64,000 nt of DNA from Unio delphinus. Taxonomy: Eukaryota > Mollusca > Bivalvia > Unionida > Unionidae. The stretch is from NCBI GenBank assembly GCA_029339505.1, contig JAQISU010001239.1, forward strand, positions 9,141,501-9,205,500, read 5' to 3'. The position numbers and the translations under genes were made by a program. Below the pieces are notes generated by a model, which worked only from the letters and a program-made list of their open reading frames with translations, did no database searches and had not been told where the DNA came from. Below, one piece after another: positions 30,846 through 62,664 of the stretch; position 1 is the first letter of the stretch, and every line of letters begins with the position of its first letter.

Positions 30846-30951
30846 TAACAGTCACATTACAAACTTCATTCATCACCATAAACCCAATGTAGGTCAAAAC
30901 AACATCAGACAATATGGTCAGCCATATCAATACAGGCAGTACACTATGGGA

Positions 30952-32313: not shown

Positions 32314-32684
32314 AGCCAGGCTGGATCTCCCTAGAAATTTTAGACGCAATAAAGCAAAAAGACCAACTAAAATCAGTAGGAAATCAAACTGAATATAGAG
32401 TTTGGAGGAATAAAGTTCATAAAATGATACATCAAGCCAAATAAGCACACTACAAAAAAATGCTGGATGAAAACCAAAATAACCCGAAAGCTATCTGGAA
32501 AGTGTTTACAGGTTTTGGTGCGGGCAAATGTAAGCGTAAAACTGAAATTTTATCCCTCAATCATGAGGGCATTTATACTGATAATCCAAAGGACATCTCA
32601 GATATTTTTAATAATTTTTTTTGTTCAAATTGCTGAAAAACTTAAAGAACCCAGAACTTCATCTTTTCATCAGGACTCATTTTT

Positions 32685-33683
32685 GTGCTAAAAAAACTAC
32701 AAAACAATATAAAATTTGAAATACCTGAAATGAGTCCAGAATTTGTGTTGAAATATATTAAAACAATGGATGTATGTAAAGCTACAGGACATGATATGAT
32801 TGGACCAAGGCTACTAAAAGTGGCTGCACCTGCAATTGTAGAGAGTACAGTTTTCATCTGTAATGAAAGTATTAGGTCTAATAAATCTCCACAAAGATGG
32901 AAAACTGCCAAGGTTATATCACTGCATAAAGCAGGAACAAAAGATGATGTAAATAACTACAGACCCATCTCTATCCTTCCTTGTCTTTCCAAATTACTAG
33001 AAAAACAAGTACATGATTCTTTTCTCAACTATTTAAACACTTATGATCTTATTCATGATAATCAGTCTGGCTTTCGCCAGAATCACCCCTGTGAAACTGC
33101 ACTTGTATCTTTGATTGATAAATGGCTGAAAGCGTTAGATCAAGGAGAAATGGTGGCACTATTATGGTTGATTTTCATAAAGCTTTTGATCTTGTAGACA
33201 ATGAAATTTTGCTTGAAAAACTAAAGATTTATCAATGTAGTGAAAACTCTAAACTGGTTTACTTCTTACTTAACCGACAAAGTGCAAAAAGTATCTTATA
33301 ATGGTCAACTTTCTGAAAGTAAAAGTATTAATTCTGGAGTACCACAAGGCTCTATCCTTGGACCTCTGTTATTCATTCTATTTACCTCTTAAGATTGGAA
33401 CTTCAATTTCTTCCACTGACCTCTATGCAGATGATACTACACTGTCTGAGATTGGTAAAACCAAAACGGTACTTGAAAATAACTTACAAGATGCTCTCAA
33501 CAGACTTCAAGTATGGTGCAAGGAAAACAGTATGATCATAAATACAGAAAAAACGAAAGCCCTACTAGTTACAACACAACAAAAACGTGGAAGACTAGAT
33601 AGCGACAAACTTAATGTTTTTTTTGACAATGTGAGCCTTAATATGACCTCTCAAGATAGAATTCTTGGTATAATTTCGTAGAT
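32685..33683 (+). pseudogene. LINE reverse transcriptase
   Basis: The RT blocks are easy to follow but fall in three frames. They are ATGHDMIGPRLLK, NNYRPISILPCLSKLLEK, SGFRQNHPCETAL, then FHKAFDLVD after a frame change near 33,150, GVPQGSILGPLLF near 33,340, and the catalytic YADD at 33,424-33,435. At least two frameshifts and a stop near 33,390 disable it. Confidence 0.85.
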
Positions 33684-46897: not shown

Positions 46898-47449
46898 ACA
46901 AATGATGATTGCACCAGCAATGAATCCTGTGATTGTGGCCTCCCTTATTGCTGCCAAGCAAGATAAACCAGTTGAATGGATCAAGAGTGCCAAGATACCA
47001 CTGGAGAAGATTTGTGGTGTTGCTATGAAGTGTGCAAAGCTTGAGTGTGAAGAAGAAGGGACAAAGAATGAGCAAATCAAATGGCGATTTCTGGAAGGGA
47101 AGGTTGAGAGGGATGCAAAAATTAAAAAACGTAGACTAATGCGAGCTGAACAACTACGAAAACAGAAGGAGCAAATTTTAAAAGCAAAAACACACTTGTG
47201 TAGAGACCACAGACGTTTGAAAAATATGAACAAACAGCAACAGTTGGCACAAATTCGAATGTGGAGAGCAGTCAGTAGATTGTGTCATGTTGAAAATAAT
47301 GCTTGCATGAAAGGATTTACCAGTATGTCAAAGTCCCAACGAATTTCTTGTATAAAGCAAGTAATAATTAGGAATTACAAGCTAAACCTGAATACACTGA
47401 CAAAAATAGATGGTGTAAATCCTGCAGATGAAAGCGAATGGAATTCATC
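46898..47449 (+). CDS. Host gene, fourth exon, left part before the palindromic insertion
   Basis: The exon begins after a TTGTTTCAG acceptor and continues the third exon in phase (AG + A). It encodes a Lys/Arg/Glu-rich helical tail, for example KLECEEEGTKNEQIKW and RDAKIKKRRLMRAEQLRKQK. The frame stays open to the insertion of the palindromic element after ...EWNS at 47,449. Reading on into the element adds about 75 unrelated codons and a stop at 47,673. The natural continuation is at 62,660. Confidence 0.75.
47445..47449. repeat. Left target-site duplication, TCATC
   Basis: TCATC precedes the first base of the palindromic element and recurs at 62,660-62,664. A sixth T matches if the terminal base of the element is counted, so a 6-bp duplication (TTCATC) is also possible. 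Confidence 0.85.
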
Positions 47450-47666
47450 AGCAGCAGAGAGGGTGAACAGACCACGATTTCAAGCAAAAATAAGGCTTCC
47501 AGATAACGTTTCCGAACAAAAAATGGCCTACACACTACGTTTTCAGACAAAAAATAAGACTTCCAACAAAATCTCATTTAACCAAAAAAAAAGTCTCCAT
47601 TTTTGCAAAAACGGATATTTTACGATTTTGCTCGCAACGATGTGGTCATCCACCCTCTCTGCTGCT
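47450..47666. repeat. Terminal 217-bp foldback, left end
   Basis: The end begins AGCAGCAGAGAGGGTGAACA and 217 bp later returns as CCACCCTCTCTGCTGCT, its near-complement. The loop contains two related AAAAATAAGnCTTCCA segments around TGGCCTACACACTACG. The end can therefore fold on itself, as parvovirus or poxvirus termini do. Confidence 0.88.
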
Positions 47667-47754
47667 ACAGGTTAACAAAAAATAATAAATGATTTGATCC
47701 AGTCTTTATGATGAAAGTCTTTAGGACGAAAATCATTTGAAATTGCAAAGCAAT

Positions 47755-49161
47755 TTAGGATTTCACAAACAAACTAATCGCTAACACCTCTTCTTGTAAA
47801 TCAATCAGATTATTTGACTGGTCGGTGAGTTTGAAATTAATTCTGGTTAATGAATTATTATGGCATCGCATATAGACAGGATTAATTGGGTTTTCAATAA
47901 TTAGGAATCCTGGAGGAGCTGTTGGTGCAAATGAATAAAGAATATATCCTTGCTGAGCTTGATTTGATCGTTCGAGATTAATTTGATAGCTTCCTTCGAT
48001 AACATCACACACTAAATTAAGTGCAATCACTGAGGATATATTCACGTTGAACGGAGCGATATGCCTGCCGCCACCGTCTGGGTCATTATTGTGTGTCAGG
48101 ATAGTTCCTTGTAGTTGTGATGATGCTTTTTTCCACGTATCATGAATTATTTTAAAACCAACATCGATGGCATCACTGAGTTGTTTGTTTAGTTCTGGTA
48201 CGTTATATCCCGGTAGTTTGAATGTTGGAATATCATTCGGGGATAATCTATATTGTTTTGCGAATTCTACTTTCGATAAGGGATTATTGTCATCTAATAT
48301 AACTCGAATAATTTGTGAATTAAATGTTTCCATATCGTCGATAATTTTATTGCATGTTTCTACAACGCTGATAAATTCATCTCGGCTGAGAGAGCCGGAT
48401 TTAAGAGATGTTAACAACAGAGAAAAATCATTATTCATCGTTGTAAAATTTTTAATGATTTCAGGTTCGTCAACAACATAATATAACTCTATTCTATTCC
48501 CTATCATCTCGTATCTGGTTGATTTGTGTCTGATACTTAAAAAATCTCTAGTGGATTGATGATCTTTATAACTCTTTACTGGATTATCCGGTTTTATCAC
48601 GTCGGTGATATAATAATTTTTTTGTGGTTCTGTTACATCAACGGTTTTACTCTGGGGTGATAATTCAGGCCATCCTAACACTGTTCTTATTGAGCTGTTA
48701 TAGATGTCTACGACGTATCCTTCTGTGTTTATCTCAATTGCGGATGATAGCGTCGGTTCATGAACTGTTATAGCGATTTTTGATTCTTTTCCAGTGATTG
48801 ATTTTATTTTACGCTGAATTTCATTATTGATTTGTTCGATTTGGTACGACCCTGTTGGTAACGAAACAGTATCCCACGTTGGAGTACCGTCGGGTTTATT
48901 CTTGTACGAGAACACCAGTGAATTATTCGGTTGTTGACCACCAAATGGTTTTGATCTGATATTAGGCCAACTGTGGTATAATCGTAGTTTTGCTAGCGCT
49001 ATTTCACGCACTGGAATCGGAGAAGGGAAATTCACACTAAACTCGGGTTTCGTTGATGTTATTGATATCATGTTTGTTCGTACTGGGTTCATGTTCTCCA
49101 CTATTCGTTGAAGTAATTCCTGCGGTGTCGTCAATGACAGTGTCATCGTTATTATACTCAT
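47755..49161 (-). CDS. Penton-like (minor capsid) candidate, 468 aa, left arm
   Basis: Probably a single-jelly-roll vertex protein. Residues 35-70 have the pattern F-S-V-N-F-P-S-P-I-P then LAKLRLYHSWPNI. Residues 101-115 read LPTGSYQIEQINNEI, and 161-167 VLGWPEL. The C-terminus has an NPVYMRC block and NSLTRINFKL. The order (flat N-terminal strands, Y-x-x-W-x-N-I, G-x-Y with I/L-N-x-x-I, L-G-[WF], C-terminal strand with Asp) matches an unnamed protein common in invertebrate polinton/adintovirus-like elements that I take as penton-like. That link is from memory of the pattern. It starts 23 bp after the stop of the Cys/His-rich gene, so the two are probably co-transcribed. An ATG at residue 6 is a possible alternative start. 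A dead relative lies at 12,092-12,481. Confidence 0.6.
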   Translation of the reverse strand: MSIITMTLSLTTPQELLQRIVENMNPVRTNMISITSTKPEFSVNFPSPIPVREIALAKLRLYHSWPNIRSKPFGGQQPNNSLVFSYKNKPDGTPTWDTVSLPTGSYQIEQINNEIQRKIKSITGKESKIAITVHEPTLSSAIEINTEGYVVDIYNSSIRTVLGWPELSPQSKTVDVTEPQKNYYITDVIKPDNPVKSYKDHQSTRDFLSIRHKSTRYEMIGNRIELYYVVDEPEIIKNFTTMNNDFSLLLTSLKSGSLSRDEFISVVETCNKIIDDMETFNSQIIRVILDDNNPLSKVEFAKQYRLSPNDIPTFKLPGYNVPELNKQLSDAIDVGFKIIHDTWKKASSQLQGTILTHNNDPDGGGRHIAPFNVNISSVIALNLVCDVIEGSYQINLERSNQAQQGYILYSFAPTAPPGFLIIENPINPVYMRCHNNSLTRINFKLTDQSNNLIDLQEEVLAISLFVKS

Positions 49162-49184
49162 GATTTATATCCAACATAGAGCCA

Positions 49185-49490
49185 TCAAACTGACTTCGTT
49201 GAGGTTTTATCACGAAGAAAATCTTCTATGGTTGTTGGTGTCCGGGACATCTTTATGTCTTGATTGACAATTGACCGATATTGATGTCCTCCGCAATCAA
49301 TACACAACTGATATTTTCCTCTGACACCCTTGGAACAACCTCGACATGGTCGTGGACCATCCGATTTACCGAGTTTGGCAAACATTGTATGCGTTCCACA
49401 GAACTTCCCGTATGAGTTTTTCCCACACGGAATCACTGCTCGTTGCGGGATCCATGCGCATTTGTTTGTAGCGAGTTTACAAGATGGCAT
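49185..49490 (-). CDS. Small Cys/His-rich protein, 101 aa, left arm
   Basis: Function unknown. Metal binding is likely: Cys/His ligands are arranged as two groups, C4-x6-C11 with C22...C31GTH, and C49RGC52 with C63IDC66GGH. Basic residues between the groups suggest nucleic-acid binding. The start ATG at 49,490 lies 53 bp from the divergent primase-helicase start with only A/T-rich DNA between. It is the first gene of the leftward pair. I do not recognise a named family. Confidence 0.75.
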   Translation of the reverse strand: MPSCKLATNKCAWIPQRAVIPCGKNSYGKFCGTHTMFAKLGKSDGPRPCRGCSKGVRGKYQLCIDCGGHQYRSIVNQDIKMSRTPTTIEDFLRDKTSTKSV

Positions 49491-49543
49491 TGTATATAAA
49501 ATAATATTATTTTAATTAGACATTTAAATTATATATATATAAA
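49491..49543. promoter_or_regulatory. Divergent 53-bp AT-only promoter, left arm
   Basis: The gap between two opposite start codons is almost pure A/T. It holds ATATATATATAAA directly before the rightward ATG and TTTTATATACA directly before the leftward ATG. Such short leaders imply virus-style transcription or host initiation very close to the start codon. Confidence 0.6.
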
Positions 49544-52500
49544 ATGATACCATATCATACACATAATGAAAAAGTTGAAGCGATTCAAGATCCAACGGAT
49601 TGGTACGATCTCGACGAGTATTATCAAAAGAATTTAGGACAGGCTTGGTACGTTCATAGCAAACAATCCGCGGTTGAATTATTAACGGCACATGATTATT
49701 TACTCACTGGAGTGATTATTCAACAACGGGGACAATTTTACGTTTTTGTGAATGATCCTGACATAACAGAATTTCAAGGATGTTCCGCGGTTAATGAAAT
49801 AATTCCAAAACAACGATTGAGATATCCTACAATCGATATTGATTCTAAAAACCCATCGTTGGAAGAATTGTTGTTGTATTTCAATGACTTAATTGACTCT
49901 GTCAATGATGTTTTAATTTTTGAAACCAGCGGCGGTTATCACATTTTATTGAAAACGATTCCGATTGATTTTGATGATCATCGAGAATTATTAAAAAAAA
50001 TCGCTGCAGACAGACCATCATGGAATATTGATACACAGGCTGGACTTCATAGCATCAAATTACCCGGAACAAGATCAGCAAAACCAAATAGTATTGATAA
50101 ACGATTGATTTATCCTGAAAATCTGAAGGATTCGGATTTTAGATATCCTAGTTTGTTATTATCCTGTCCTATTTCTGTACAGACTTGTTACGAAAAAGTC
50201 ACTGACAATGAAACAAATGACTTTGTTGATGACTCTGCCATTGATGGCTCTGCCATTGGTGACGATTTGACCAACGAAGATTTCAATCAAATATCTATCG
50301 AGTTGACTGGACAACCAGATCAAATCACTGGGATTACAAATCAAACCGGCAATATGATTTCACTGGGAAGGGTTGCTGGATCGTATTGTAATATTTGTCA
50401 ACGACGACATGGATACAATGAGATTGGCGGATTCATTGAGGGAAAAGCCATCGATGCATTTGTTGTTGTTTACTCTGATAGACTCGTGATCGGTTGTTTC
50501 CGTACCACAAAAAATAAAATCATGATATTGAGAGACTCTGATAAAACCAATGACAAAATCGATGGCAGAGCCATTGACGATAGTAAAACACTCTACGAAA
50601 AATACTTGAAATCATACAACTATCACCGAGTAGATCATAGTGGTGAATTTCCAAAAAGAATTCCGGATTACACCTACTGTGAGCCACCTATTCATGAAAA
50701 TGGCCAAGGATGTAAAATCATCCTCAACGACGACTATATGGATGGGTCTGCTTGTGGGATGGGAAAGTCAGCGTCGGCATGGAAATCAATACGAGATGAT
50801 CAATCTGTGTTGTATTTGAGTTACAGAAAGACGTTCACTAGAAAAACCACCATCGACTATAATCTCGAATCATATGAAACAATTCATGGAGGAATTATTT
50901 TTGATACAAGAACTCATCGAAGGGTTATTTCGCAGATTGAATCGATTGTACGAGTCAAAGGAATTCCTGATGTGATATTGTTAGATGAATGGCATGGTAT
51001 TCTTCGTCAAATAATCTCATCGAATCGTGGAAAACAGATTTGGGAAACACTCACATGGTTGATTAGTTCAGCAAAACGAGTAATCGTGTTAGACGCAGAT
51101 GCTAACAATGATGATCTAGAATTATTCAAGAAATTTTTAAATCGTCCGGACATGAAATTCATCATCAACGAGTATAAACCAGATTGTGGAAAAAAGTTTG
51201 TTGTAGAACAATCTCATCATGACAACTACGTAAAATTGTTAGACTCGCTGCAACAAGGAAATCGTGCAGTAGTCTTCACACAGAACAAACGACACGGAAA
51301 TTATTCTGTAGAAGCCCTTGCTAAATTGTTACAGCATTTAGGATACCGAGTGAAATACTATCACGCTGATACAGATTCTGCAGAAAAAGAAAGAGATTTT
51401 GCTGATCCCGTTGAAGCGTTTAATAACATCGATGTAGTGATTTATAATTGCACCGTAGAAGCAGGAATATCAATCGTAGACGAACGATTCAAGTACATGG
51501 CGGTGTTTTCTGAACAACTAGGATCTGTAGAAGCAACTAAACAAGCAATTCATCGGTTCAGAAATATTACTGAAATTCATTATTCAGTGACAAAGTCACC
51601 GATGACAAAGTCACCGACTACTAAACGATCTTCCACAACACTACCACTCACACGCGACGATATTATTTCTGCCATTGAATCACATGAGAGAGATCTGTCC
51701 GTTACTGAATTGTTGTTCAGAACTCCCAATCTCAATGATGTGAATTCTAGTTATGGATACGCATTTATCAGTGCCATTATTGACGAGAATAATTCGAAGT
51801 GTTATTTTACTGGACGACTCGTTGAAATGATGGCGCGAACCGGATATGATGTCACGTGGGAATTACCAGATGAATATGATGTGTGGTGCGAAAAAATAAA
51901 ACAAAAAAAAGAAGAAAAAATCCCGAACAAAGATATTAATAATAATCCCGTCGTAGATGATTTTTTGAAATCTTCTATCGGAGAAAGAATTGCTAATGCG
52001 GGAAATATTGACAGTGAACAACAAAAATATCATCGATATGATCCTAATAATCAACAACAATTAGAACCCTACGCGAAGAAATTGATGTATCTCAATCATG
52101 TATTTCAAACTGATGTGAGCAAATTGGATACAAACACGATTGAACACCTCGATAAAAACGTATCACGATTACAACGATACCAGCGAGTCCTTGTTGATAA
52201 ATTTAATGATGGTAAATCAATTATTACACAACAATGCAGATCTGATAAAATCAATCCACGGCAACAACTCGAGATTGTCAGAAGTGTCCTTGATGTGCTA
52301 AAACTCCCTGATGTGGTTCCGGATGATTTATCGGTGAAAGATGTTTCTGTGAACCGCGCTGAATTAATCGAGAGCATCAATGAAATGTTAGCGAAACCAG
52401 ATCAACTCGATAAATATCAAACGTTATTAAAACACTTCAATGAAATATTTCCGGATGTGCGGTTTAGAAATAAAACACTATCAGTGAAAAATATCATCGA

Positions 52501-52765
52501 AAAAATTAAATTGATTTACAAGGGATTCGGTGGAAGATTACAATCTGATGATAAAATGCATCCCAATCGATCTAATCTCACATTGTTTTATCCTGAGTGG
52601 CCGAAATCTGATTTCATAGATGATCCTACATGGAATAATGAAACCGTTGATGATGTAGGGTTTGCTGGTAAAGACCTTATTGCAACGGGTACACACACTA
52701 CAATGTTACGATTTCATGTTTGGACCGTTAATGGTTGGTTTTCCCGATATGATGATTCCGATTGA
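49544..52765 (+). CDS. AEP primase - UL9-like SF2 helicase fusion, 1073 aa, left arm
   Basis: Probable replication initiator: it should synthesise primers and unwind the origin. Residues 1-200 look like an archaeo-eukaryotic primase: TIDID (96-100, metal-binding Asp pair), SGGYH (129-133, the G-x-H block) and KLPGTR (172-177). A zinc-binding CNIC-x3-H...C follows (C282, C285, H289, C318), as in large-virus primases. Residues 395-680 match the origin-binding helicase family of herpesvirus UL9: Walker A CGMGKS (404-409), DEWH (481-484), VLDADAN (515-521), VVFTQNK (586-592), VEAGIS (638-643) and QAIHRFRN (667-674). The last 390 residues are unassigned. Primase plus UL9-like helicase on one chain is known in some large DNA viruses and related elements. 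All catalytic motifs look intact. It ends 12 bp before the 95-bp repeat. Confidence 0.87.
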   Translation: MIPYHTHNEKVEAIQDPTDWYDLDEYYQKNLGQAWYVHSKQSAVELLTAHDYLLTGVIIQQRGQFYVFVNDPDITEFQGCSAVNEIIPKQRLRYPTIDIDSKNPSLEELLLYFNDLIDSVNDVLIFETSGGYHILLKTIPIDFDDHRELLKKIAADRPSWNIDTQAGLHSIKLPGTRSAKPNSIDKRLIYPENLKDSDFRYPSLLLSCPISVQTCYEKVTDNETNDFVDDSAIDGSAIGDDLTNEDFNQISIELTGQPDQITGITNQTGNMISLGRVAGSYCNICQRRHGYNEIGGFIEGKAIDAFVVVYSDRLVIGCFRTTKNKIMILRDSDKTNDKIDGRAIDDSKTLYEKYLKSYNYHRVDHSGEFPKRIPDYTYCEPPIHENGQGCKIILNDDYMDGSACGMGKSASAWKSIRDDQSVLYLSYRKTFTRKTTIDYNLESYETIHGGIIFDTRTHRRVISQIESIVRVKGIPDVILLDEWHGILRQIISSNRGKQIWETLTWLISSAKRVIVLDADANNDDLELFKKFLNRPDMKFIINEYKPDCGKKFVVEQSHHDNYVKLLDSLQQGNRAVVFTQNKRHGNYSVEALAKLLQHLGYRVKYYHADTDSAEKERDFADPVEAFNNIDVVIYNCTVEAGISIVDERFKYMAVFSEQLGSVEATKQAIHRFRNITEIHYSVTKSPMTKSPTTKRSSTTLPLTRDDIISAIESHERDLSVTELLFRTPNLNDVNSSYGYAFISAIIDENNSKCYFTGRLVEMMARTGYDVTWELPDEYDVWCEKIKQKKEEKIPNKDINNNPVVDDFLKSSIGERIANAGNIDSEQQKYHRYDPNNQQQLEPYAKKLMYLNHVFQTDVSKLDTNTIEHLDKNVSRLQRYQRVLVDKFNDGKSIITQQCRSDKINPRQQLEIVRSVLDVLKLPDVVPDDLSVKDVSVNRAELIESINEMLAKPDQLDKYQTLLKHFNEIFPDVRFRNKTLSVKNIIEKIKLIYKGFGGRLQSDDKMHPNRSNLTLFYPEWPKSDFIDDPTWNNETVDDVGFAGKDLIATGTHTTMLRFHVWTVNGWFSRYDDSD

Positions 52766-52777
52766 TCAATGGAAAAG

Positions 52778-52872
52778 TGGCGAAAGTGTCAGTATTATTA
52801 TTTTTATATACAATTTGGACACTTTCGCCATCACTGAACGAAGGTGTCTCACGACGAAATAACGCTTCTACG
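52778..52872 (+). repeat. 95-bp repeat, copy 1 (candidate origin), left arm outer
   Basis: It contains TGGCGAAAGTGTC (52,778-52,790) and its exact complement GACACTTTCGCCA (52,818-52,830) around 27 bp of nearly pure A/T. A 42-bp tail ends CGCTTCTACG. Two inverted sites flanking an AT-rich spacer is the layout of herpesvirus oriS, the target of UL9. A terminator hairpin is the main alternative, because it lies just past a stop codon. Confidence 0.8.
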
Positions 52873-52904
52873 GCAGAGATTGAAATCCATCTGTTGTCAG
52901 ATTT

Positions 52905-52975
52905 TTTATCATCAATGACTTTTTGTCATCAATGACTTTTTGTCATCAATGACTTTTATCATCAATGATTTCATC
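52905..52975. repeat. 17-bp tandem repeat, left arm (one unit fewer)
   Basis: Units of ACTTTTTGTCATCAATG. The left arm has one unit fewer than the right arm (57,115-57,205). This is the single length difference I found between the arms. Confidence 0.85.
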
Positions 52976-53056
52976 ATTGTTGTCAATGATTTTATCATTG
53001 TTGTTGTTGTTGTTGTTGTTATTATTATTGTTAAAAAAATATCTTTTAATTCTATA

Positions 53057-53872
53057 ATGCCTGTTCGTAGAGTACTAACTCGTGATGACATAAATGCTAT
53101 CAAACAATTGAGAAACCGTGTTGGAATAGCAGAAATCGCTGATAAGTATAAAATCAGTTATCAGAGGATTTATCGAATTTGGAAATCGGATGAAATCGGA
53201 ATCGGAAATATTAGCTCTGATGGTGTTAATGATATACCCATCGAACATCTTATTGATGCTGAAGTTGAAAACGAAATAAATCAAATGTTGAATGAAAAAG
53301 TGTATCAACACGTTGATGCTACCATAAATGACTCTGACAGAGTCGATGTCAAAGCCATTGACAGAGTCATTGATAAAGAAATGATATGTCAATTACAATC
53401 TCAAGTGACCAATCTAACCAATCAGAATAACTTGCTGCAAACAAAGATAACAGCGCTACGACAACAACGACAACAACAACAACAACAACAACAATCAATC
53501 AATGATTCGTTAAATGATTTACAATATCAATTAAATACCACACAACAACACCGTAGCGATGCAGTTCGAGATCGCAGTAAACTTATGACTGAACTCAATG
53601 AAGTACGACGTGAGTTAGAGTTAATTAGAATTAAATACTCAGAACTCGCTAGTAAGTACAATCAACTTTTGAATCAAAATGATGAACAATCACAACTAAA
53701 AAGAAGAGAGCACCGACGAAAACAAAAACACCAACGAAAACAAAAACAGCATGAAGATAACATCTGGATGCTATCACTACCCGAAGAAGATCGTGAATTC
53801 ATTAAAGAAATCAATGAAGTACTTAATGACAAAGTCGATGATAAAGTCATCAATGACGAAAGTCATCAATGA
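53057..53872 (+). CDS. Helix-turn-helix / coiled-coil protein, 271 aa, left arm
   Basis: Likely a DNA-binding regulator or replication partner. Residues 8-45 form a helix-turn-helix (DDINAIKQLRNRVGIAEIAD then YKISYQRIYRIWKS), similar in style to resolvase or transposase HTHs. A coiled coil with a poly-Gln run fills about residues 115-235, followed by a very basic patch (KRREHRRKQKHQRKQKQ). The tail NDKVDDKVINDE is encoded by the element's own ATCAATGAC repeats. I chose the ATG at 53,057 because upstream codons are simple repeat (TTG)n and (ATC)n. An open frame from 52,940 would add a meaningless hydrophobic leader. Confidence 0.75.
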   Translation: MPVRRVLTRDDINAIKQLRNRVGIAEIADKYKISYQRIYRIWKSDEIGIGNISSDGVNDIPIEHLIDAEVENEINQMLNEKVYQHVDATINDSDRVDVKAIDRVIDKEMICQLQSQVTNLTNQNNLLQTKITALRQQRQQQQQQQQSINDSLNDLQYQLNTTQQHRSDAVRDRSKLMTELNEVRRELELIRIKYSELASKYNQLLNQNDEQSQLKRREHRRKQKHQRKQKQHEDNIWMLSLPEEDREFIKEINEVLNDKVDDKVINDESHQ

Positions 53873-53894
53873 CGAAAGTCATCAATGACTAATC

Positions 53895-54194
53895 TCAGTT
53901 GACACGCGTAAATGAAATCCCACCACCAATGATTTCAACGTGGTATTTATTTCTGGTACGCTCTAGAATATCAGCGAGTAATTGATAGTTTTGCAACCGA
54001 CTCTGATGATATTTTTCACTGAGACGAAAACGCGCCTCTGAGTTTCTATTGTTATGGATTGCACATTTATGAGTGACGCCATCAGGTCCTTTTTCTGTTA
54101 TAATTCTTCGACCGGTTCCTGTGATTTTATCATAAACCGTTAATTTTGGATTACGATTGCGATAATCACTAAGTGCAGCCTCAAATTGAGACAT
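53895..54194 (-). CDS. Unknown 99-aa protein, left arm
   Basis: Not recognised. The N-terminus is charged and rich in Arg and Asn, with a probable beta hairpin (KLTVYDKITGTGRRIITE) and a helical middle. The C-terminus IIGGGISFTRVN could be a final strand. It converges on the HTH gene with 22 bp between stops and diverges from the 146-aa gene across 46 bp. Perfect conservation between arms and tight packing support a real gene. Confidence 0.65.
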   Translation of the reverse strand: MSQFEAALSDYRNRNPKLTVYDKITGTGRRIITEKGPDGVTHKCAIHNNRNSEARFRLSEKYHQSRLQNYQLLADILERTRNKYHVEIIGGGISFTRVN

Positions 54195-54240
54195 ATAATA
54201 AAGCGGGTATTTAATTAATTATTAAAATGATATCATAATA
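54195..54240. promoter_or_regulatory. Divergent 46-bp AT-rich promoter, left arm
   Basis: The gap between the opposite starts of the 99-aa and 146-aa genes. It contains TTTAATTAATTATTAAAATG and is A/T except for a short GCGGG. It has the same arrangement as the 53-bp gap at 49,491. Confidence 0.5.
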
Positions 54241-54681
54241 ATGTGTACTATCAATGATATGTCCGCGTTGAAAATAATACGCCCGGGTTATTTTCGAGAT
54301 AAATTAATCCATGATGATTTGTCACGTGATAAATACTTCCTGCTTCCACTGGATTTAATGATGACATTTAAACTTCGCGGTGATGAAATAGTCCCAATCA
54401 TTGATAACACATCATCCAATCTCACAGCGTTTTCATTATTAAAGATAGTTGAAGAATTCCAAGAAGAATTTAACCGCCGGATCAATATCGTAAAATCGTC
54501 AAAAACCGTCAATCAGTTTGATAAGGAAATATTAAAAATCGTCAAAAAATCTCCCGAGAAAATAAATTATCATGTATCGATGTTTCTTGATTTCGGGGAT
54601 AAATTCATATTGGTTAATTTGTATACTGGGAAATATAAGACAACGATGAGGAAAGTGCCTAATTTGTCGGATGATTTTTAA
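54241..54681 (+). CDS. Unknown 146-aa protein, left arm
   Basis: Not recognised. It is a mixed alpha/beta protein with a helical middle (FSLLKIVEEFQEEFNRRINI) and a beta-rich C-terminus (FILVNLYTGKYKTTMRKV). There is no signal peptide or membrane span. It ends 18 bp before the inner 95-bp repeat. The start could also be the ATG seven codons downstream. Confidence 0.65.
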   Translation: MCTINDMSALKIIRPGYFRDKLIHDDLSRDKYFLLPLDLMMTFKLRGDEIVPIIDNTSSNLTAFSLLKIVEEFQEEFNRRINIVKSSKTVNQFDKEILKIVKKSPEKINYHVSMFLDFGDKFILVNLYTGKYKTTMRKVPNLSDDF

Positions 54682-54699
54682 CACGGCCATTAACAATAT

Positions 54700-54794
54700 C
54701 GTAGAAGCGTTATTTCGTCGTGAGACACCTTCGTTCAGTGATGGCGAAAGTATCCAAATTGTATATAAAAATAATAATACTGACACTTTCGCCA
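54700..54794 (-). repeat. 95-bp repeat, copy 2 (candidate origin), left arm inner
   Basis: The reverse complement of copy 1 apart from one C/T change in one stem (GATACTTTCGCCA). Together with copy 1 it flanks the module holding the HTH, 99-aa and 146-aa genes in inverted orientation. Confidence 0.85.
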
Positions 54795-54968
54795 TTCTAC
54801 GCTGATCAATATGATTTAGCTTCAACAATATGTCTCTTTATTACAACCACGCATCATTATAGCCACACGATTGTAAATCAGAATTGTTTCATCGACAATA
54901 ACACAAGTGTTGAATACAGCGTGATTAAAAATATATCTAAAAAAATGAGGCGACTGAAAAATTCATAA
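54720..54968 (+). CDS. Possible 82-aa protein overlapping the repeat, left arm
   Basis: An open frame starts inside the 95-bp repeat and ends in a basic tail (SKKMRRLKNS). The first 26 residues come from repeat DNA. The rest has ordinary composition. It may be a real small gene expressed from the repeat, or chance. Nothing decides. Confidence 0.25.
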   Translation: MRHLRSVMAKVSKLYIKIIILTLSPFYADQYDLASTICLFITTTHHYSHTIVNQNCFIDNNTSVEYSVIKNISKKMRRLKNS

Positions 54969-55028
54969 TAAAATATTTTTTCTCACCCAATAATATATCA
55001 CTGCTTTTTATTGTTGTTGTTGTTGTTA

Positions 55029-55063
55029 ATTACCATTAGTATTTTGCTTAAGAACAAACATAG
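55029..55063. other. Palindrome centre, 35-bp asymmetric spacer
   Basis: The left arm ends in (TTG)5TTA at 55,028 and the right arm begins TAA(CAA)5 at 55,064. The 35 bp between is not self-complementary. The layout equals a hairpin loop copied open, as in concatemer junctions of hairpin-ended linear genomes. Confidence 0.88.
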
Positions 55064-55123
55064 TAACAACAACAACAACAATAAAAAGCAGTGATATATT
55101 ATTGGGTGAGAAAAAATATTTTA

Positions 55124-55372
55124 TTATGAATTTTTCAGTCGCCTCATTTTTTTAGATATATTTTTAATCACGCTGTATTCAACACTTGTGTTATTGTCGA
55201 TGAAACAATTCTGATTTACAATCGTGTGGCTATAATGATGCGTGGTTGTAATAAAGAGACATATTGTTGAAGCTAAATCATATTGATCAGCGTAGAATGG
55301 CGAAAGTGTCAGTATTATTATTTTTATATACAATTTGGATACTTTCGCCATCACTGAACGAAGGTGTCTCAC
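55124..55372 (-). CDS. Possible 82-aa protein, right arm
   Basis: Identical mirror of 54,720-54,968, with the same doubts. Confidence 0.25.
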   Translation of the reverse strand: MRHLRSVMAKVSKLYIKIIILTLSPFYADQYDLASTICLFITTTHHYSHTIVNQNCFIDNNTSVEYSVIKNISKKMRRLKNS

Positions 55373-55392
55373 GACGAAATAACGCTTCTACG
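55298..55392 (+). repeat. 95-bp repeat, copy 3, right arm inner
   Basis: The mirror of copy 2, including its single C/T variant. Copies 2 and 3 bracket the central 503 bp. Confidence 0.85.
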
Positions 55393-55410
55393 ATATTGTT
55401 AATGGCCGTG

Positions 55411-55851
55411 TTAAAAATCATCCGACAAATTAGGCACTTTCCTCATCGTTGTCTTATATTTCCCAGTATACAAATTAACCAATATGAATTTATCCCCGAA
55501 ATCAAGAAACATCGATACATGATAATTTATTTTCTCGGGAGATTTTTTGACGATTTTTAATATTTCCTTATCAAACTGATTGACGGTTTTTGACGATTTT
55601 ACGATATTGATCCGGCGGTTAAATTCTTCTTGGAATTCTTCAACTATCTTTAATAATGAAAACGCTGTGAGATTGGATGATGTGTTATCAATGATTGGGA
55701 CTATTTCATCACCGCGAAGTTTAAATGTCATCATTAAATCCAGTGGAAGCAGGAAGTATTTATCACGTGACAAATCATCATGGATTAATTTATCTCGAAA
55801 ATAACCCGGGCGTATTATTTTCAACGCGGACATATCATTGATAGTACACAT
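55411..55851 (-). CDS. Unknown 146-aa protein, right arm
   Basis: Protein identical to 54,241-54,681. See that entry. Confidence 0.65.
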   Translation of the reverse strand: MCTINDMSALKIIRPGYFRDKLIHDDLSRDKYFLLPLDLMMTFKLRGDEIVPIIDNTSSNLTAFSLLKIVEEFQEEFNRRINIVKSSKTVNQFDKEILKIVKKSPEKINYHVSMFLDFGDKFILVNLYTGKYKTTMRKVPNLSDDF

Positions 55852-55897
55852 TATTATGATATCATTTTAATAATTAATTAAATACCCGCTTTATTAT
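55852..55897. promoter_or_regulatory. Divergent 46-bp AT-rich promoter, right arm
   Basis: Mirror of 54,195-54,240. Confidence 0.5.
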
Positions 55898-56197
55898 ATG
55901 TCTCAATTTGAGGCTGCACTTAGTGATTATCGCAATCGTAATCCAAAATTAACGGTTTATGATAAAATCACAGGAACCGGTCGAAGAATTATAACAGAAA
56001 AAGGACCTGATGGCGTCACTCATAAATGTGCAATCCATAACAATAGAAACTCAGAGGCGCGTTTTCGTCTCAGTGAAAAATATCATCAGAGTCGGTTGCA
56101 AAACTATCAATTACTCGCTGATATTCTAGAGCGTACCAGAAATAAATACCACGTTGAAATCATTGGTGGTGGGATTTCATTTACGCGTGTCAACTGA
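55898..56197 (+). CDS. Unknown 99-aa protein, right arm
   Basis: Protein identical to 53,895-54,194. See that entry. Confidence 0.65.
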   Translation: MSQFEAALSDYRNRNPKLTVYDKITGTGRRIITEKGPDGVTHKCAIHNNRNSEARFRLSEKYHQSRLQNYQLLADILERTRNKYHVEIIGGGISFTRVN

Positions 56198-56219
56198 GAT
56201 TAGTCATTGATGACTTTCG

Positions 56220-57035
56220 TCATTGATGACTTTCGTCATTGATGACTTTATCATCGACTTTGTCATTAAGTACTTCATTGATTTCTTTAATGAATTCACG
56301 ATCTTCTTCGGGTAGTGATAGCATCCAGATGTTATCTTCATGCTGTTTTTGTTTTCGTTGGTGTTTTTGTTTTCGTCGGTGCTCTCTTCTTTTTAGTTGT
56401 GATTGTTCATCATTTTGATTCAAAAGTTGATTGTACTTACTAGCGAGTTCTGAGTATTTAATTCTAATTAACTCTAACTCACGTCGTACTTCATTGAGTT
56501 CAGTCATAAGTTTACTGCGATCTCGAACTGCATCGCTACGGTGTTGTTGTGTGGTATTTAATTGATATTGTAAATCATTTAACGAATCATTGATTGATTG
56601 TTGTTGTTGTTGTTGTTGTTGTCGTTGTTGTCGTAGCGCTGTTATCTTTGTTTGCAGCAAGTTATTCTGATTGGTTAGATTGGTCACTTGAGATTGTAAT
56701 TGACATATCATTTCTTTATCAATGACTCTGTCAATGGCTTTGACATCGACTCTGTCAGAGTCATTTATGGTAGCATCAACGTGTTGATACACTTTTTCAT
56801 TCAACATTTGATTTATTTCGTTTTCAACTTCAGCATCAATAAGATGTTCGATGGGTATATCATTAACACCATCAGAGCTAATATTTCCGATTCCGATTTC
56901 ATCCGATTTCCAAATTCGATAAATCCTCTGATAACTGATTTTATACTTATCAGCGATTTCTGCTATTCCAACACGGTTTCTCAATTGTTTGATAGCATTT
57001 ATGTCATCACGAGTTAGTACTCTACGAACAGGCAT
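56220..57035 (-). CDS. Helix-turn-helix / coiled-coil protein, 271 aa, right arm
   Basis: Protein identical to 53,057-53,872. The start ATG is at 57,035-57,033 for the same reason as in the left arm. Confidence 0.75.
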   Translation of the reverse strand: MPVRRVLTRDDINAIKQLRNRVGIAEIADKYKISYQRIYRIWKSDEIGIGNISSDGVNDIPIEHLIDAEVENEINQMLNEKVYQHVDATINDSDRVDVKAIDRVIDKEMICQLQSQVTNLTNQNNLLQTKITALRQQRQQQQQQQQSINDSLNDLQYQLNTTQQHRSDAVRDRSKLMTELNEVRRELELIRIKYSELASKYNQLLNQNDEQSQLKRREHRRKQKHQRKQKQHEDNIWMLSLPEEDREFIKEINEVLNDKVDDKVINDESHQ

Positions 57036-57114
57036 TATAGAATTAAAAGATATTTTTTTAACAATAATAATAACAACAACAACAACAACAACAATGATAA
57101 AATCATTGACAACA

Positions 57115-57205
57115 ATGATGAAATCATTGATGATAAAAGTCATTGATGACAAAAAGTCATTGATGACAAAAAGTCATTGATGACAAAAAGTCATTGATGA
57201 TAAAA
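57115..57205. repeat. 17-bp tandem repeat, right arm (one unit more)
   Basis: CATTGATGACAAAAAGT units, one more than in the left arm. The two arms shift by exactly 17 bp in mirror coordinates on either side of this array. Confidence 0.85.
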
Positions 57206-57236
57206 AATCTGACAACAGATGGATTTCAATCTCTGC

Positions 57237-57331
57237 CGTAGAAGCGTTATTTCGTCGTGAGACACCTTCGTTCAGTGATGGCGAAAGTGTCCAAATTGTA
57301 TATAAAAATAATAATACTGACACTTTCGCCA
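57237..57331 (-). repeat. 95-bp repeat, copy 4, right arm outer
   Basis: Mirror of copy 1 with both 13-bp stems perfect. Confidence 0.85.
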
Positions 57332-57343
57332 CTTTTCCATTGA

Positions 57344-60300
57344 TCAATCGGAATCATCATATCGGGAAAACCAACCATTAACGGTCCAAACATGAAATCG
57401 TAACATTGTAGTGTGTGTACCCGTTGCAATAAGGTCTTTACCAGCAAACCCTACATCATCAACGGTTTCATTATTCCATGTAGGATCATCTATGAAATCA
57501 GATTTCGGCCACTCAGGATAAAACAATGTGAGATTAGATCGATTGGGATGCATTTTATCATCAGATTGTAATCTTCCACCGAATCCCTTGTAAATCAATT
57601 TAATTTTTTCGATGATATTTTTCACTGATAGTGTTTTATTTCTAAACCGCACATCCGGAAATATTTCATTGAAGTGTTTTAATAACGTTTGATATTTATC
57701 GAGTTGATCTGGTTTCGCTAACATTTCATTGATGCTCTCGATTAATTCAGCGCGGTTCACAGAAACATCTTTCACCGATAAATCATCCGGAACCACATCA
57801 GGGAGTTTTAGCACATCAAGGACACTTCTGACAATCTCGAGTTGTTGCCGTGGATTGATTTTATCAGATCTGCATTGTTGTGTAATAATTGATTTACCAT
57901 CATTAAATTTATCAACAAGGACTCGCTGGTATCGTTGTAATCGTGATACGTTTTTATCGAGGTGTTCAATCGTGTTTGTATCCAATTTGCTCACATCAGT
58001 TTGAAATACATGATTGAGATACATCAATTTCTTCGCGTAGGGTTCTAATTGTTGTTGATTATTAGGATCATATCGATGATATTTTTGTTGTTCACTGTCA
58101 ATATTTCCCGCATTAGCAATTCTTTCTCCGATAGAAGATTTCAAAAAATCATCTACGACGGGATTATTATTAATATCTTTGTTCGGGATTTTTTCTTCTT
58201 TTTTTTGTTTTATTTTTTCGCACCACACATCATATTCATCTGGTAATTCCCACGTGACATCATATCCGGTTCGCGCCATCATTTCAACGAGTCGTCCAGT
58301 AAAATAACACTTCGAATTATTCTCGTCAATAATGGCACTGATAAATGCGTATCCATAACTAGAATTCACATCATTGAGATTGGGAGTTCTGAACAACAAT
58401 TCAGTAACGGACAGATCTCTCTCATGTGATTCAATGGCAGAAATAATATCGTCGCGTGTGAGTGGTAGTGTTGTGGAAGATCGTTTAGTAGTCGGTGACT
58501 TTGTCATCGGTGACTTTGTCACTGAATAATGAATTTCAGTAATATTTCTGAACCGATGAATTGCTTGTTTAGTTGCTTCTACAGATCCTAGTTGTTCAGA
58601 AAACACCGCCATGTACTTGAATCGTTCGTCTACGATTGATATTCCTGCTTCTACGGTGCAATTATAAATCACTACATCGATGTTATTAAACGCTTCAACG
58701 GGATCAGCAAAATCTCTTTCTTTTTCTGCAGAATCTGTATCAGCGTGATAGTATTTCACTCGGTATCCTAAATGCTGTAACAATTTAGCAAGGGCTTCTA
58801 CAGAATAATTTCCGTGTCGTTTGTTCTGTGTGAAGACTACTGCACGATTTCCTTGTTGCAGCGAGTCTAACAATTTTACGTAGTTGTCATGATGAGATTG
58901 TTCTACAACAAACTTTTTTCCACAATCTGGTTTATACTCGTTGATGATGAATTTCATGTCCGGACGATTTAAAAATTTCTTGAATAATTCTAGATCATCA
59001 TTGTTAGCATCTGCGTCTAACACGATTACTCGTTTTGCTGAACTAATCAACCATGTGAGTGTTTCCCAAATCTGTTTTCCACGATTCGATGAGATTATTT
59101 GACGAAGAATACCATGCCATTCATCTAACAATATCACATCAGGAATTCCTTTGACTCGTACAATCGATTCAATCTGCGAAATAACCCTTCGATGAGTTCT
59201 TGTATCAAAAATAATTCCTCCATGAATTGTTTCATATGATTCGAGATTATAGTCGATGGTGGTTTTTCTAGTGAACGTCTTTCTGTAACTCAAATACAAC
59301 ACAGATTGATCATCTCGTATTGATTTCCATGCCGACGCTGACTTTCCCATCCCACAAGCAGACCCATCCATATAGTCGTCGTTGAGGATGATTTTACATC
59401 CTTGGCCATTTTCATGAATAGGTGGCTCACAGTAGGTGTAATCCGGAATTCTTTTTGGAAATTCACCACTATGATCTACTCGGTGATAGTTGTATGATTT
59501 CAAGTATTTTTCGTAGAGTGTTTTACTATCGTCAATGGCTCTGCCATCGATTTTGTCATTGGTTTTATCAGAGTCTCTCAATATCATGATTTTATTTTTT
59601 GTGGTACGGAAACAACCGATCACGAGTCTATCAGAGTAAACAACAACAAATGCATCGATGGCTTTTCCCTCAATGAATCCGCCAATCTCATTGTATCCAT
59701 GTCGTCGTTGACAAATATTACAATACGATCCAGCAACCCTTCCCAGTGAAATCATATTGCCGGTTTGATTTGTAATCCCAGTGATTTGATCTGGTTGTCC
59801 AGTCAACTCGATAGATATTTGATTGAAATCTTCGTTGGTCAAATCGTCACCAATGGCAGAGCCATCAATGGCAGAGTCATCAACAAAGTCATTTGTTTCA
59901 TTGTCAGTGACTTTTTCGTAACAAGTCTGTACAGAAATAGGACAGGATAATAACAAACTAGGATATCTAAAATCCGAATCCTTCAGATTTTCAGGATAAA
60001 TCAATCGTTTATCAATACTATTTGGTTTTGCTGATCTTGTTCCGGGTAATTTGATGCTATGAAGTCCAGCCTGTGTATCAATATTCCATGATGGTCTGTC
60101 TGCAGCGATTTTTTTTAATAATTCTCGATGATCATCAAAATCAATCGGAATCGTTTTCAATAAAATGTGATAACCGCCGCTGGTTTCAAAAATTAAAACA
60201 TCATTGACAGAGTCAATTAAGTCATTGAAATACAACAACAATTCTTCCAACGATGGGTTTTTAGAATCAATATCGATTGTAGGATATCTCAATCGTTGTT

Positions 60301-60565
60301 TTGGAATTATTTCATTAACCGCGGAACATCCTTGAAATTCTGTTATGTCAGGATCATTCACAAAAACGTAAAATTGTCCCCGTTGTTGAATAATCACTCC
60401 AGTGAGTAAATAATCATGTGCCGTTAATAATTCAACCGCGGATTGTTTGCTATGAACGTACCAAGCCTGTCCTAAATTCTTTTGATAATACTCGTCGAGA
60501 TCGTACCAATCCGTTGGATCTTGAATCGCTTCAACTTTTTCATTATGTGTATGATATGGTATCAT
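57344..60565 (-). CDS. AEP primase - UL9-like SF2 helicase fusion, 1073 aa, right arm
   Basis: Protein identical over its whole length to 49,544-52,765, with all motifs intact. See that entry for domains. Confidence 0.87.
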   Translation of the reverse strand: MIPYHTHNEKVEAIQDPTDWYDLDEYYQKNLGQAWYVHSKQSAVELLTAHDYLLTGVIIQQRGQFYVFVNDPDITEFQGCSAVNEIIPKQRLRYPTIDIDSKNPSLEELLLYFNDLIDSVNDVLIFETSGGYHILLKTIPIDFDDHRELLKKIAADRPSWNIDTQAGLHSIKLPGTRSAKPNSIDKRLIYPENLKDSDFRYPSLLLSCPISVQTCYEKVTDNETNDFVDDSAIDGSAIGDDLTNEDFNQISIELTGQPDQITGITNQTGNMISLGRVAGSYCNICQRRHGYNEIGGFIEGKAIDAFVVVYSDRLVIGCFRTTKNKIMILRDSDKTNDKIDGRAIDDSKTLYEKYLKSYNYHRVDHSGEFPKRIPDYTYCEPPIHENGQGCKIILNDDYMDGSACGMGKSASAWKSIRDDQSVLYLSYRKTFTRKTTIDYNLESYETIHGGIIFDTRTHRRVISQIESIVRVKGIPDVILLDEWHGILRQIISSNRGKQIWETLTWLISSAKRVIVLDADANNDDLELFKKFLNRPDMKFIINEYKPDCGKKFVVEQSHHDNYVKLLDSLQQGNRAVVFTQNKRHGNYSVEALAKLLQHLGYRVKYYHADTDSAEKERDFADPVEAFNNIDVVIYNCTVEAGISIVDERFKYMAVFSEQLGSVEATKQAIHRFRNITEIHYSVTKSPMTKSPTTKRSSTTLPLTRDDIISAIESHERDLSVTELLFRTPNLNDVNSSYGYAFISAIIDENNSKCYFTGRLVEMMARTGYDVTWELPDEYDVWCEKIKQKKEEKIPNKDINNNPVVDDFLKSSIGERIANAGNIDSEQQKYHRYDPNNQQQLEPYAKKLMYLNHVFQTDVSKLDTNTIEHLDKNVSRLQRYQRVLVDKFNDGKSIITQQCRSDKINPRQQLEIVRSVLDVLKLPDVVPDDLSVKDVSVNRAELIESINEMLAKPDQLDKYQTLLKHFNEIFPDVRFRNKTLSVKNIIEKIKLIYKGFGGRLQSDDKMHPNRSNLTLFYPEWPKSDFIDDPTWNNETVDDVGFAGKDLIATGTHTTMLRFHVWTVNGWFSRYDDSD

Positions 60566-60618
60566 TTTATATATATATAATTTAAATGTCTAATTAAAAT
60601 AATATTATTTTATATACA
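60566..60618. promoter_or_regulatory. Divergent 53-bp AT-only promoter, right arm
   Basis: Mirror of 49,491-49,543. Confidence 0.6.
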
Positions 60619-60924
60619 ATGCCATCTTGTAAACTCGCTACAAACAAATGCGCATGGATCCCGCAACGAGCAGTGATTCCGTGTGGGAAAAACTCATACG
60701 GGAAGTTCTGTGGAACGCATACAATGTTTGCCAAACTCGGTAAATCGGATGGTCCACGACCATGTCGAGGTTGTTCCAAGGGTGTCAGAGGAAAATATCA
60801 GTTGTGTATTGATTGCGGAGGACATCAATATCGGTCAATTGTCAATCAAGACATAAAGATGTCCCGGACACCAACAACCATAGAAGATTTTCTTCGTGAT
60901 AAAACCTCAACGAAGTCAGTTTGA
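60619..60924 (+). CDS. Small Cys/His-rich protein, 101 aa, right arm
   Basis: Protein identical to 49,185-49,490. See that entry. Confidence 0.75.
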   Translation: MPSCKLATNKCAWIPQRAVIPCGKNSYGKFCGTHTMFAKLGKSDGPRPCRGCSKGVRGKYQLCIDCGGHQYRSIVNQDIKMSRTPTTIEDFLRDKTSTKSV

Positions 60925-60947
60925 TGGCTCTATGTTGGATATAAATC

Positions 60948-62354
60948 ATGAGTATAATAACGATGACACTGTCATTGACGACACCGCAGGAATTACTTCA
61001 ACGAATAGTGGAGAACATGAACCCAGTACGAACAAACATGATATCAATAACATCAACGAAACCCGAGTTTAGTGTGAATTTCCCTTCTCCGATTCCAGTG
61101 CGTGAAATAGCGCTAGCAAAACTACGATTATACCACAGTTGGCCTAATATCAGATCAAAACCATTTGGTGGTCAACAACCGAATAATTCACTGGTGTTCT
61201 CGTACAAGAATAAACCCGACGGTACTCCAACGTGGGATACTGTTTCGTTACCAACAGGGTCGTACCAAATCGAACAAATCAATAATGAAATTCAGCGTAA
61301 AATAAAATCAATCACTGGAAAAGAATCAAAAATCGCTATAACAGTTCATGAACCGACGCTATCATCCGCAATTGAGATAAACACAGAAGGATACGTCGTA
61401 GACATCTATAACAGCTCAATAAGAACAGTGTTAGGATGGCCTGAATTATCACCCCAGAGTAAAACCGTTGATGTAACAGAACCACAAAAAAATTATTATA
61501 TCACCGACGTGATAAAACCGGATAATCCAGTAAAGAGTTATAAAGATCATCAATCCACTAGAGATTTTTTAAGTATCAGACACAAATCAACCAGATACGA
61601 GATGATAGGGAATAGAATAGAGTTATATTATGTTGTTGACGAACCTGAAATCATTAAAAATTTTACAACGATGAATAATGATTTTTCTCTGTTGTTAACA
61701 TCTCTTAAATCCGGCTCTCTCAGCCGAGATGAATTTATCAGCGTTGTAGAAACATGCAATAAAATTATCGACGATATGGAAACATTTAATTCACAAATTA
61801 TTCGAGTTATATTAGATGACAATAATCCCTTATCGAAAGTAGAATTCGCAAAACAATATAGATTATCCCCGAATGATATTCCAACATTCAAACTACCGGG
61901 ATATAACGTACCAGAACTAAACAAACAACTCAGTGATGCCATCGATGTTGGTTTTAAAATAATTCATGATACGTGGAAAAAAGCATCATCACAACTACAA
62001 GGAACTATCCTGACACACAATAATGACCCAGACGGTGGCGGCAGGCATATCGCTCCGTTCAACGTGAATATATCCTCAGTGATTGCACTTAATTTAGTGT
62101 GTGATGTTATCGAAGGAAGCTATCAAATTAATCTCGAACGATCAAATCAAGCTCAGCAAGGATATATTCTTTATTCATTTGCACCAACAGCTCCTCCAGG
62201 ATTCCTAATTATTGAAAACCCAATTAATCCTGTCTATATGCGATGCCATAATAATTCATTAACCAGAATTAATTTCAAACTCACCGACCAGTCAAATAAT
62301 CTGATTGATTTACAAGAAGAGGTGTTAGCGATTAGTTTGTTTGTGAAATCCTAA
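60948..62354 (+). CDS. Penton-like candidate, 468 aa, right arm
   Basis: Protein identical to 47,755-49,161. It starts 23 bp after the Cys/His-rich gene. Its stop is 88 bp from the terminal foldback. Confidence 0.6.
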   Translation: MSIITMTLSLTTPQELLQRIVENMNPVRTNMISITSTKPEFSVNFPSPIPVREIALAKLRLYHSWPNIRSKPFGGQQPNNSLVFSYKNKPDGTPTWDTVSLPTGSYQIEQINNEIQRKIKSITGKESKIAITVHEPTLSSAIEINTEGYVVDIYNSSIRTVLGWPELSPQSKTVDVTEPQKNYYITDVIKPDNPVKSYKDHQSTRDFLSIRHKSTRYEMIGNRIELYYVVDEPEIIKNFTTMNNDFSLLLTSLKSGSLSRDEFISVVETCNKIIDDMETFNSQIIRVILDDNNPLSKVEFAKQYRLSPNDIPTFKLPGYNVPELNKQLSDAIDVGFKIIHDTWKKASSQLQGTILTHNNDPDGGGRHIAPFNVNISSVIALNLVCDVIEGSYQINLERSNQAQQGYILYSFAPTAPPGFLIIENPINPVYMRCHNNSLTRINFKLTDQSNNLIDLQEEVLAISLFVKS

Positions 62355-62442
62355 ATTGCTTTGCAATTTCAAATGATTTTCGTCCTAAAGACTTTCATCA
62401 TAAAGACTGGATCAAATCATTTATTATTTTTTGTTAACCTGT

Positions 62443-62659
62443 AGCAGCAGAGAGGGTGGATGACCACATCGTTGCGAGCAAAATCGTAAAATATCCGTTT
62501 TTGCAAAAATGGAGACTTTTTTTTTGGTTAAATGAGATTTTGTTGGAAGTCTTATTTTTTGTCTGAAAACGTAGTGTGTAGGCCATTTTTTGTTCGGAAA
62601 CGTTATCTGGAAGCCTTATTTTTGCTTGAAATCGTGGTCTGTTCACCCTCTCTGCTGCT
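62443..62659. repeat. Terminal 217-bp foldback, right end
   Basis: The exact mirror of 47,450-47,666. The terminal TGCTGCT borders the right TCATC duplication. Confidence 0.88.
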
Positions 62660-62664
62660 TCATC
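62660..62664. repeat. Right target-site duplication, TCATC
   Basis: Matches 47,445-47,449. The host codons continue directly from here. Confidence 0.85.

Follow-up and report, generated by a model that had tools for sequence, protein, structure and literature searches.

Long near-perfect palindromes are usually unstable and tend to be read as artefacts. The locus described here lies in a 64,000-nucleotide stretch of the Unio delphinus genome (contig JAQISU010001239.1, positions 9,141,501 to 9,205,500; referred to below as the window), and it raises the question of what a palindrome of 15.2 kb, with the same genes in both arms, represents. The answer that we favour, with modest confidence, is an inserted palindromic element that carries a predicted primase-helicase and a predicted penton, has no recognisable integrase, and is a satellite of an abundant polinton-like family.

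The palindrome, its ends and its principal genes

The palindrome occupies positions 47450-62659 of the window, and one arm is the reverse complement of the other, without a single mismatch and with one gap of 17 bp. The left arm spans 47450-55028 (7,579 bp) and the right arm, on the minus strand, 55064-62659 (7,596 bp); the latter mirrors the whole left arm plus one further 17-bp unit in a tandem array (52903-52968 on the left, 57124-57206 on the right), which accounts for the difference in length. The arms make up essentially the entire element, the unique middle being the palindrome centre, or loop, of 35 nt (55029-55063). Six open reading frames (ORFs) of 468, 101, 1073, 310, 99 and 146 aa are present in both arms, and the zero base differences between the arms suggest that the insertion is recent.

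On both sides, the 5-bp target-site duplication TCATC (47445-47449 and 62660-62664) abuts termini of the form AGCAGC...GCTGCT. The left outer end (47450-47669, plus strand) begins 5'-AGCAGCAGAGAGGGTG and contains a foldback of ~217 nt, and the right outer end (62443-62659, minus strand) is a foldback finishing in ...GCTGCT-3'. Folded as DNA, the outer 220 nt reached -38 kcal/mol compared to -16.9 (sd 3.0) in 200 shuffles (z -6.95). The architecture reported in a first-pass annotation of this DNA, with two arms of identical gene content, a 35-nt centre, terminal foldbacks and target-site duplications, was thus borne out in full.

The 1073-aa protein (49544-52765, plus strand, in the left arm; ORF at 57344-60565, minus strand, in the right) is a predicted primase-helicase. 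It matched the Pfam family PF02399, Herpes_ori_bp (9.9e-12, 44.2 bits, cut-off 20), and PHROG 4913, annotated as 'replication' (5.9e-21), and from these matches a helicase function of the UL9 type is predicted. The strings IDIDSK, SGGYHIL and LPGTR, possible catalytic motifs of an archaeo-eukaryotic primase (AEP), were found by eye, with comparable residues in the distant homologue P0002 (26% identity), and no primase family was matched in the profile searches. The UL9-type helicase proposed earlier stands, and the AEP assignment is a tentative one at the level of motifs. The median ratio of nonsynonymous to synonymous substitution rates (dN/dS) for this protein was 0.22 (171 pairs).

The 468-aa protein (47755-49161, minus strand; ORF at 60948-62354, plus strand) is predicted from its modelled structure, a single jelly roll with a helical insert, to be a penton-fold capsid protein. 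An earlier model with a predicted local distance difference test (pLDDT) score of 56 gave weak matches; a deeper alignment raised the score of the AlphaFold2 (AF2) model to 79, with a predicted template-modelling score of 0.50. In searches with Foldseek and VIA, this model matched the vertex proteins of mavirus, PBCV-1 and adenovirus, although with low TM-scores. Its median dN/dS was 0.42 (36 pairs), and across seven gene sets, each of 5-19 intact ORFs and computed from intact ORFs only, medians ranged from 0.05 to 0.42. With its own replication helicase and a predicted penton, the element is still aptly described as virus-like.

Profile searches detected no integrase, PolB, transposase or parvovirus replication family among the six window genes, nor any FtsK/A32-type packaging ATPase in the window copy, and no major capsid protein was recognised among the six by sequence. 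Named relatives came only from the freshwater mussels Sinanodonta woodiana and Potamilus streckersoni, the remainder lying on unnamed contigs. In IMG/VR, no relative was confirmed for the helicase, the penton, or the ATPase and integrase described below, and a single exact match to the 18-nt end was found (L062). Sequence searches of the PDB with the helicase and the ATPase never gave an E-value under 0.08, and phage records yielded five Aeromonas phages with 25-26% identity across one quarter of the helicase. As had been supposed, the searches met no named family with such a six-gene set.

Recurrence of the palindrome and apparent renewal of its arms

When the 2.5-Gb genome (1,246 contigs) was searched, the window helicase gave at least 46 matches, and at least 92 distinct helicase genes were present in two scored lists, obtained with the window query and with a diverged query from locus L010. 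Among these listed genes, at least 22 convergent pairs lay within 12 kb; apart from these pairs, close neighbours were confined to a cluster of three helicase genes at C222:2390420-2402819, in an order unlike that of the standard palindrome. The listed helicases fell into two subfamilies, ~60% identical, both with convergent pairs. A second arm of the same type was present in 12 of 20 fetched 10-kb loci, two of which, L020 and L021, on C39 and C11, are near-identical. The palindromic form recurs across at least two subfamilies and is not one captured dimer: the head-to-head dimer of the first-pass annotation was retained, and the single capture event that it assumed was not.

All 29 outer ends that were read begin AGCAGCAGAG, the first 18 nt being identical in 26 and showing 1-2 changes in three. 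An exact 5-bp duplication at this same terminus was found in 19 of the 20 palindromes with both ends readable (21 tested), two of the duplications being of low complexity (AAAAA and ATATA); C264 had no exact duplication, and in C44 the right end was not found. C39 (99.95% identical to C11 over 10 kb), C19 (L013), C63 and the one-arm loci stand outside this count. By eye, the printed 30-nt flanks were unrelated, except for the repeated loci C63 (present twice) and C11/C39.

Identity between the arms of a palindrome, with gaps counted, was 99.2-99.97% in 13 of the 14 palindromes compared and 96.8% in L022, some of these comparisons spanning only 1.5-2.6 kb. In contrast, the window copy was 85.9-94.8% identical to 21 other copies (longest match of each). 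Therefore, the mirror image appears to be renewed from one arm. We infer that the element normally exists as a palindrome, produced from a single arm just before insertion; the alternative is conversion between the arms at a later time. Seven sources contain the loop motif (L012, L016, L017, L018, L019, L028 and the window). A 95-nt repeat (52778-52872, plus strand, in the left arm) and its inverted partner (54700-54794, minus strand) border a segment that is flipped in both arms of L023, and flipped also in L025.

A candidate helper family with the same ends

Locus L061, of 3.4 kb, begins with the same terminus and foldback, followed by an ATPase of the Pox_A32 family (1.3e-12) and then by an integrase of the rve family (8.1e-10). 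Over 229-230 nt, the L061 foldback is 97.8% identical to that of the palindrome on C143, and over 142 nt it is 100% identical to that on C518. The integrase had at least 140 copies at 98-100% identity, and the ATPase of L016, its own copy included, at least 150 at 99-100%, that of L061 among them; such numbers of near-identical helper-type genes suggest recent activity. The integrase and ATPase lists had 33 loci in common, all divergent and at a fixed spacing among the matches listed, and a rough Lincoln-Petersen estimate, whose assumptions are violated by score-ranked lists, puts the family at ~640 copies. Also among the matches listed, a penton lies 13.5 kb from the ATPase on C38 and 11.6-11.7 kb from the integrase on C222 and C250, in end-to-end orientation. 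These loci, at about C38:8767900-8783350, C222:18528900-18543650 and C250:2968450-2983330, would be ~14.7-15.4 kb long by arithmetic, if the end offsets are as in L061 and the window, suggesting a non-palindromic helper virus with a penton ~15 kb from the shared end. The helper probably lacks the window-type helicase, because the ATPase and helicase lists, which hold the best-scored candidates only, meet at C99 alone, which is L016 and itself an arm copy.

An rve integrase, an FtsK/A32-type packaging ATPase and a penton belong to the gene set of the Polinton/Maverick/adintovirus group (MELD viruses; PMC4028283, PMC11071296). The 3.4 kb of the helper in L061 fits that gene set, and the palindromic element resembles Polintons in its predicted single-jelly-roll penton. 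It differs from Polintons in that neither an integrase nor a PolB nor a major capsid protein is recognised by sequence, in that its arms lie head to head as a palindrome, and in its UL9-type helicase. The window element also lacks the packaging ATPase, which is found in L061 and, complete or partial, in L012, L016 and L025/L026. The target duplication of Polintons is 6 bp, whereas that of the palindromic element is 5 bp.

The first-pass annotation had taken the element for a replicon standing on its own. Because no integrase is recognisable and the ends are common to the integrase/ATPase family, that view was given up in favour of a satellite with a helper. The replicating unit would be a hairpin monomer, one 7.6-kb arm with its inner end closed at the 35-nt loop. 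As the element's own replication protein copied around the loop, a head-to-head dimer would form whose two outer ends are identical, and the rve integrase of the helper would insert these ends in trans with 5-bp duplications; packaging would likewise occur in trans, in the helper capsid. A wider picture, to which we give an even chance, is a two-tier virus world in the animal germline, in which an abundant integrating polinton-like virus is accompanied by self-replicating satellites. Their heritable form would be a near-perfect head-to-head palindrome, remade from one arm each cycle and giving a one-ended replicon two identical ends for a borrowed integrase, and their outer segments would be swapped with the helper.

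The outermost gene position (slot 1) was read in 22 loci, with repeated loci counted once, and in 14 of them penton sequence extended across most of the gene. An A32-type packaging ATPase was present there in L012 (in two pieces), L016 (whole) and L025/L026 (C-terminal part). L007/L008 and L009 had a 145-aa ORF or its pieces together with a 150-aa penton remnant, L011 had a 129-aa ORF, and nothing was recognised in the slot of L024. The outer slot of L003/L004 had a 235-aa ORF, with a 41-aa penton remnant at the locus end; in L003 (139-846), this ORF replaces most of the penton gene and appears secreted or membrane-like by eye. The outer segments of the satellites look as if they had been captured from either end of the helper, the penton end or the ATPase end.

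The four smaller genes are given here for the left arm. A 101-aa Cys-rich protein (49185-49490, minus strand), zinc-ribbon-like by eye, has two alleles ~50% identical across copies. A protein with a helix-turn-helix (HTH) and a coiled coil (53057-53872, plus strand; 271 aa from ATG, 310 aa from an upstream TTG) gave HTH_28 at 0.0016, HTH_7 at 0.017 and HTH_23 at 0.018, all under the cut-offs. A 99-aa protein (53895-54194, minus strand) and a 146-aa protein (54241-54681, plus strand) have no assigned family, and the latter is absent or altered in many other copies.

Elsewhere in the window, positions 12203-12466 encode a stretch with 34% identity to the penton C-terminus (3.9e-7), likely a relic of an older related element, and the ORFs at 30914-33197 resemble by eye a broken retrotransposon of the type without long terminal repeats. 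An Rfam scan of the window gave nothing at gathering cut-offs. Decayed virus-like genes on the minus strand were seen in L029 and beside the single-arm copy in L018 (8430-10000); among them are a PolB fragment (PF03175, 0.028, below the cut-off) and a region sharing 30% identity with the packaging ATPase. Pieces of the L011 flank align with L029 at ~69-85%.

Weighing the alternatives

Several points weigh against the satellite reading. The element is known here from genomic sequence alone, and the helper was read over the 3.4 kb of L061, where no hexon, protease or polymerase is found. The loci on C38, C222 and C250 are known by coordinates alone. About 0.01 coincidences per list are expected for their geometry, which speaks for a helper, but that geometry was fixed after the loci had been seen, and for any geometry within 30 kb the expectations are 0.33 and 0.31, with 1 and 2 seen. 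Candidates scored were 43 of 1501 for the window helicase, 73 of 1178 for the L010 helicase, 91 of 48009 for the penton, 150 of 47084 for the ATPase and 140 of 52279 for the integrase. L010 (C132:7043063-7053062) is a hybrid pair, with one helicase 59% identical to the window type and the other arm 90%, and in L013 and L025 no match longer than 400 bp was obtained between the arms. The loop motif was unmatched in the loci other than its seven sources, the centres being altered or deleted in several, and the 310-aa HTH protein may be a very diverged recombinase. On C212, the only ATPase pair within 30 kb among the matches listed has at its centre 147-nt arms and a 6-nt loop, and is open over 49 codons beside the loop; with an ATPase-end palindrome around such a different centre, palindromes may arise de novo. 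The single-arm copies sought since the first-pass annotation were also found: one arm only was present within 10 kb in 7 of the 20 loci (L011, L015, L016, L018, L024, L025 and L026, the last repeating L025). These copies count against the satellite reading and in favour of its closest competitor.

That competitor, which we hold to be unlikely yet the strongest of the alternatives, takes each palindrome as a snap-back defective genome, generated anew as a by-product of a ~15-kb full-length virus with penton, helicase and other genes at one end, not inherited as a palindrome. Adeno-associated virus (AAV) forms snap-back genomes, with terminal foldbacks and palindromic dimers around one end (PMC8235507). 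The foldbacks of the window element and its near-identical arms around a short loop recall these parvovirus genomes; unlike them, the palindrome has no parvovirus replication family and recurs at many sites with target duplications and with a loop motif in seven sources. The same interpretation would accommodate the single arms, the palindrome at the ATPase end on C212, and the length of the window palindrome, close to that deduced from coordinates for the full virus. It is also favoured by pairs of inverted penton genes, spaced 8-11 kb, for which no helicase is listed (C288, C243, C10 and C49); these pairs are likely further palindromes of other sizes. However, diverged copies share the loop motif, convergent pairs occur in both subfamilies, and in the incomplete lists a helicase lies within 30 kb of only one of 150 ATPase genes (C99, L016), while 78 of 91 pentons have none within that distance. 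In L016 and L018, the single arm ends at the loop base (L016:8611 and L018:8425) with unrelated sequence beyond, and a target duplication searched for by eye was not found; such breaks may mark places where a hairpin monomer was inserted by one end, or where the tip of a palindrome was deleted.

In a bipartite virus, which we judge improbable, the palindrome segment would provide helicase and penton and the other family ATPase and integrase, both being needed. The complementary gene sets, the common ends and the dN/dS values below 1 in all gene sets agree with it, whereas C38, C222 and C250 hint at a penton belonging to the helper itself, at its far end, and the copy numbers are unequal (roughly ~640 compared to at least 92 listed helicase genes).

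Long inverted arms and target duplications are also features of foldback DNA transposons and those with long terminal inverted repeats. An ordinary transposon of that kind would explain the ends, the duplications and the inverted arms, but is very unlikely: in the element, the arms are nearly the whole length around a 35-nt unique middle and carry virus-like genes, with a predicted penton and, in some copies, a packaging ATPase; no transposase family was matched in the six genes, and the arms are homogenised copy by copy. Perfect palindromes are classic products of a missed adapter or of misjoined inverted copies, but this explanation is strongly disfavoured and scarcely credible here, as the outer flanks differ, 19 of 20 palindromes have target duplications, and the same ends and loop recur at unrelated loci.

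If the satellite reading is retained, the closest comparison is with virophages such as mavirus and Sputnik, which it resembles in being a DNA element of small size, in its match to a penton fold (6g41/6g42, 3j26), in its integration into a host genome and in a proposed dependence on a larger partner, suggested by the missing integrase and ATPase and by the shared ends. It differs in having a probable animal host, in a proposed helper that itself integrates and is ~15 kb long, and in a palindromic satellite genome with no integrase or major capsid protein recognised. In literature titles and abstracts, a coverage that excludes preprint servers and most subscription journals, no palindromic polinton-like mollusc satellite, or genome-length palindrome as a regular inserted form, was recognised.

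Because the insertion in the window looks recent and the helper genes suggest recent activity, free forms of the element are worth seeking. The long palindrome described here has the appearance of the usual state of an inserted element, one whose genes are intact and have dN/dS values under 1. Were it indeed a satellite, an animal genome would host a virophage-like system, and the palindrome would be a simple way for a one-ended linear replicon to gain two integrase sites.

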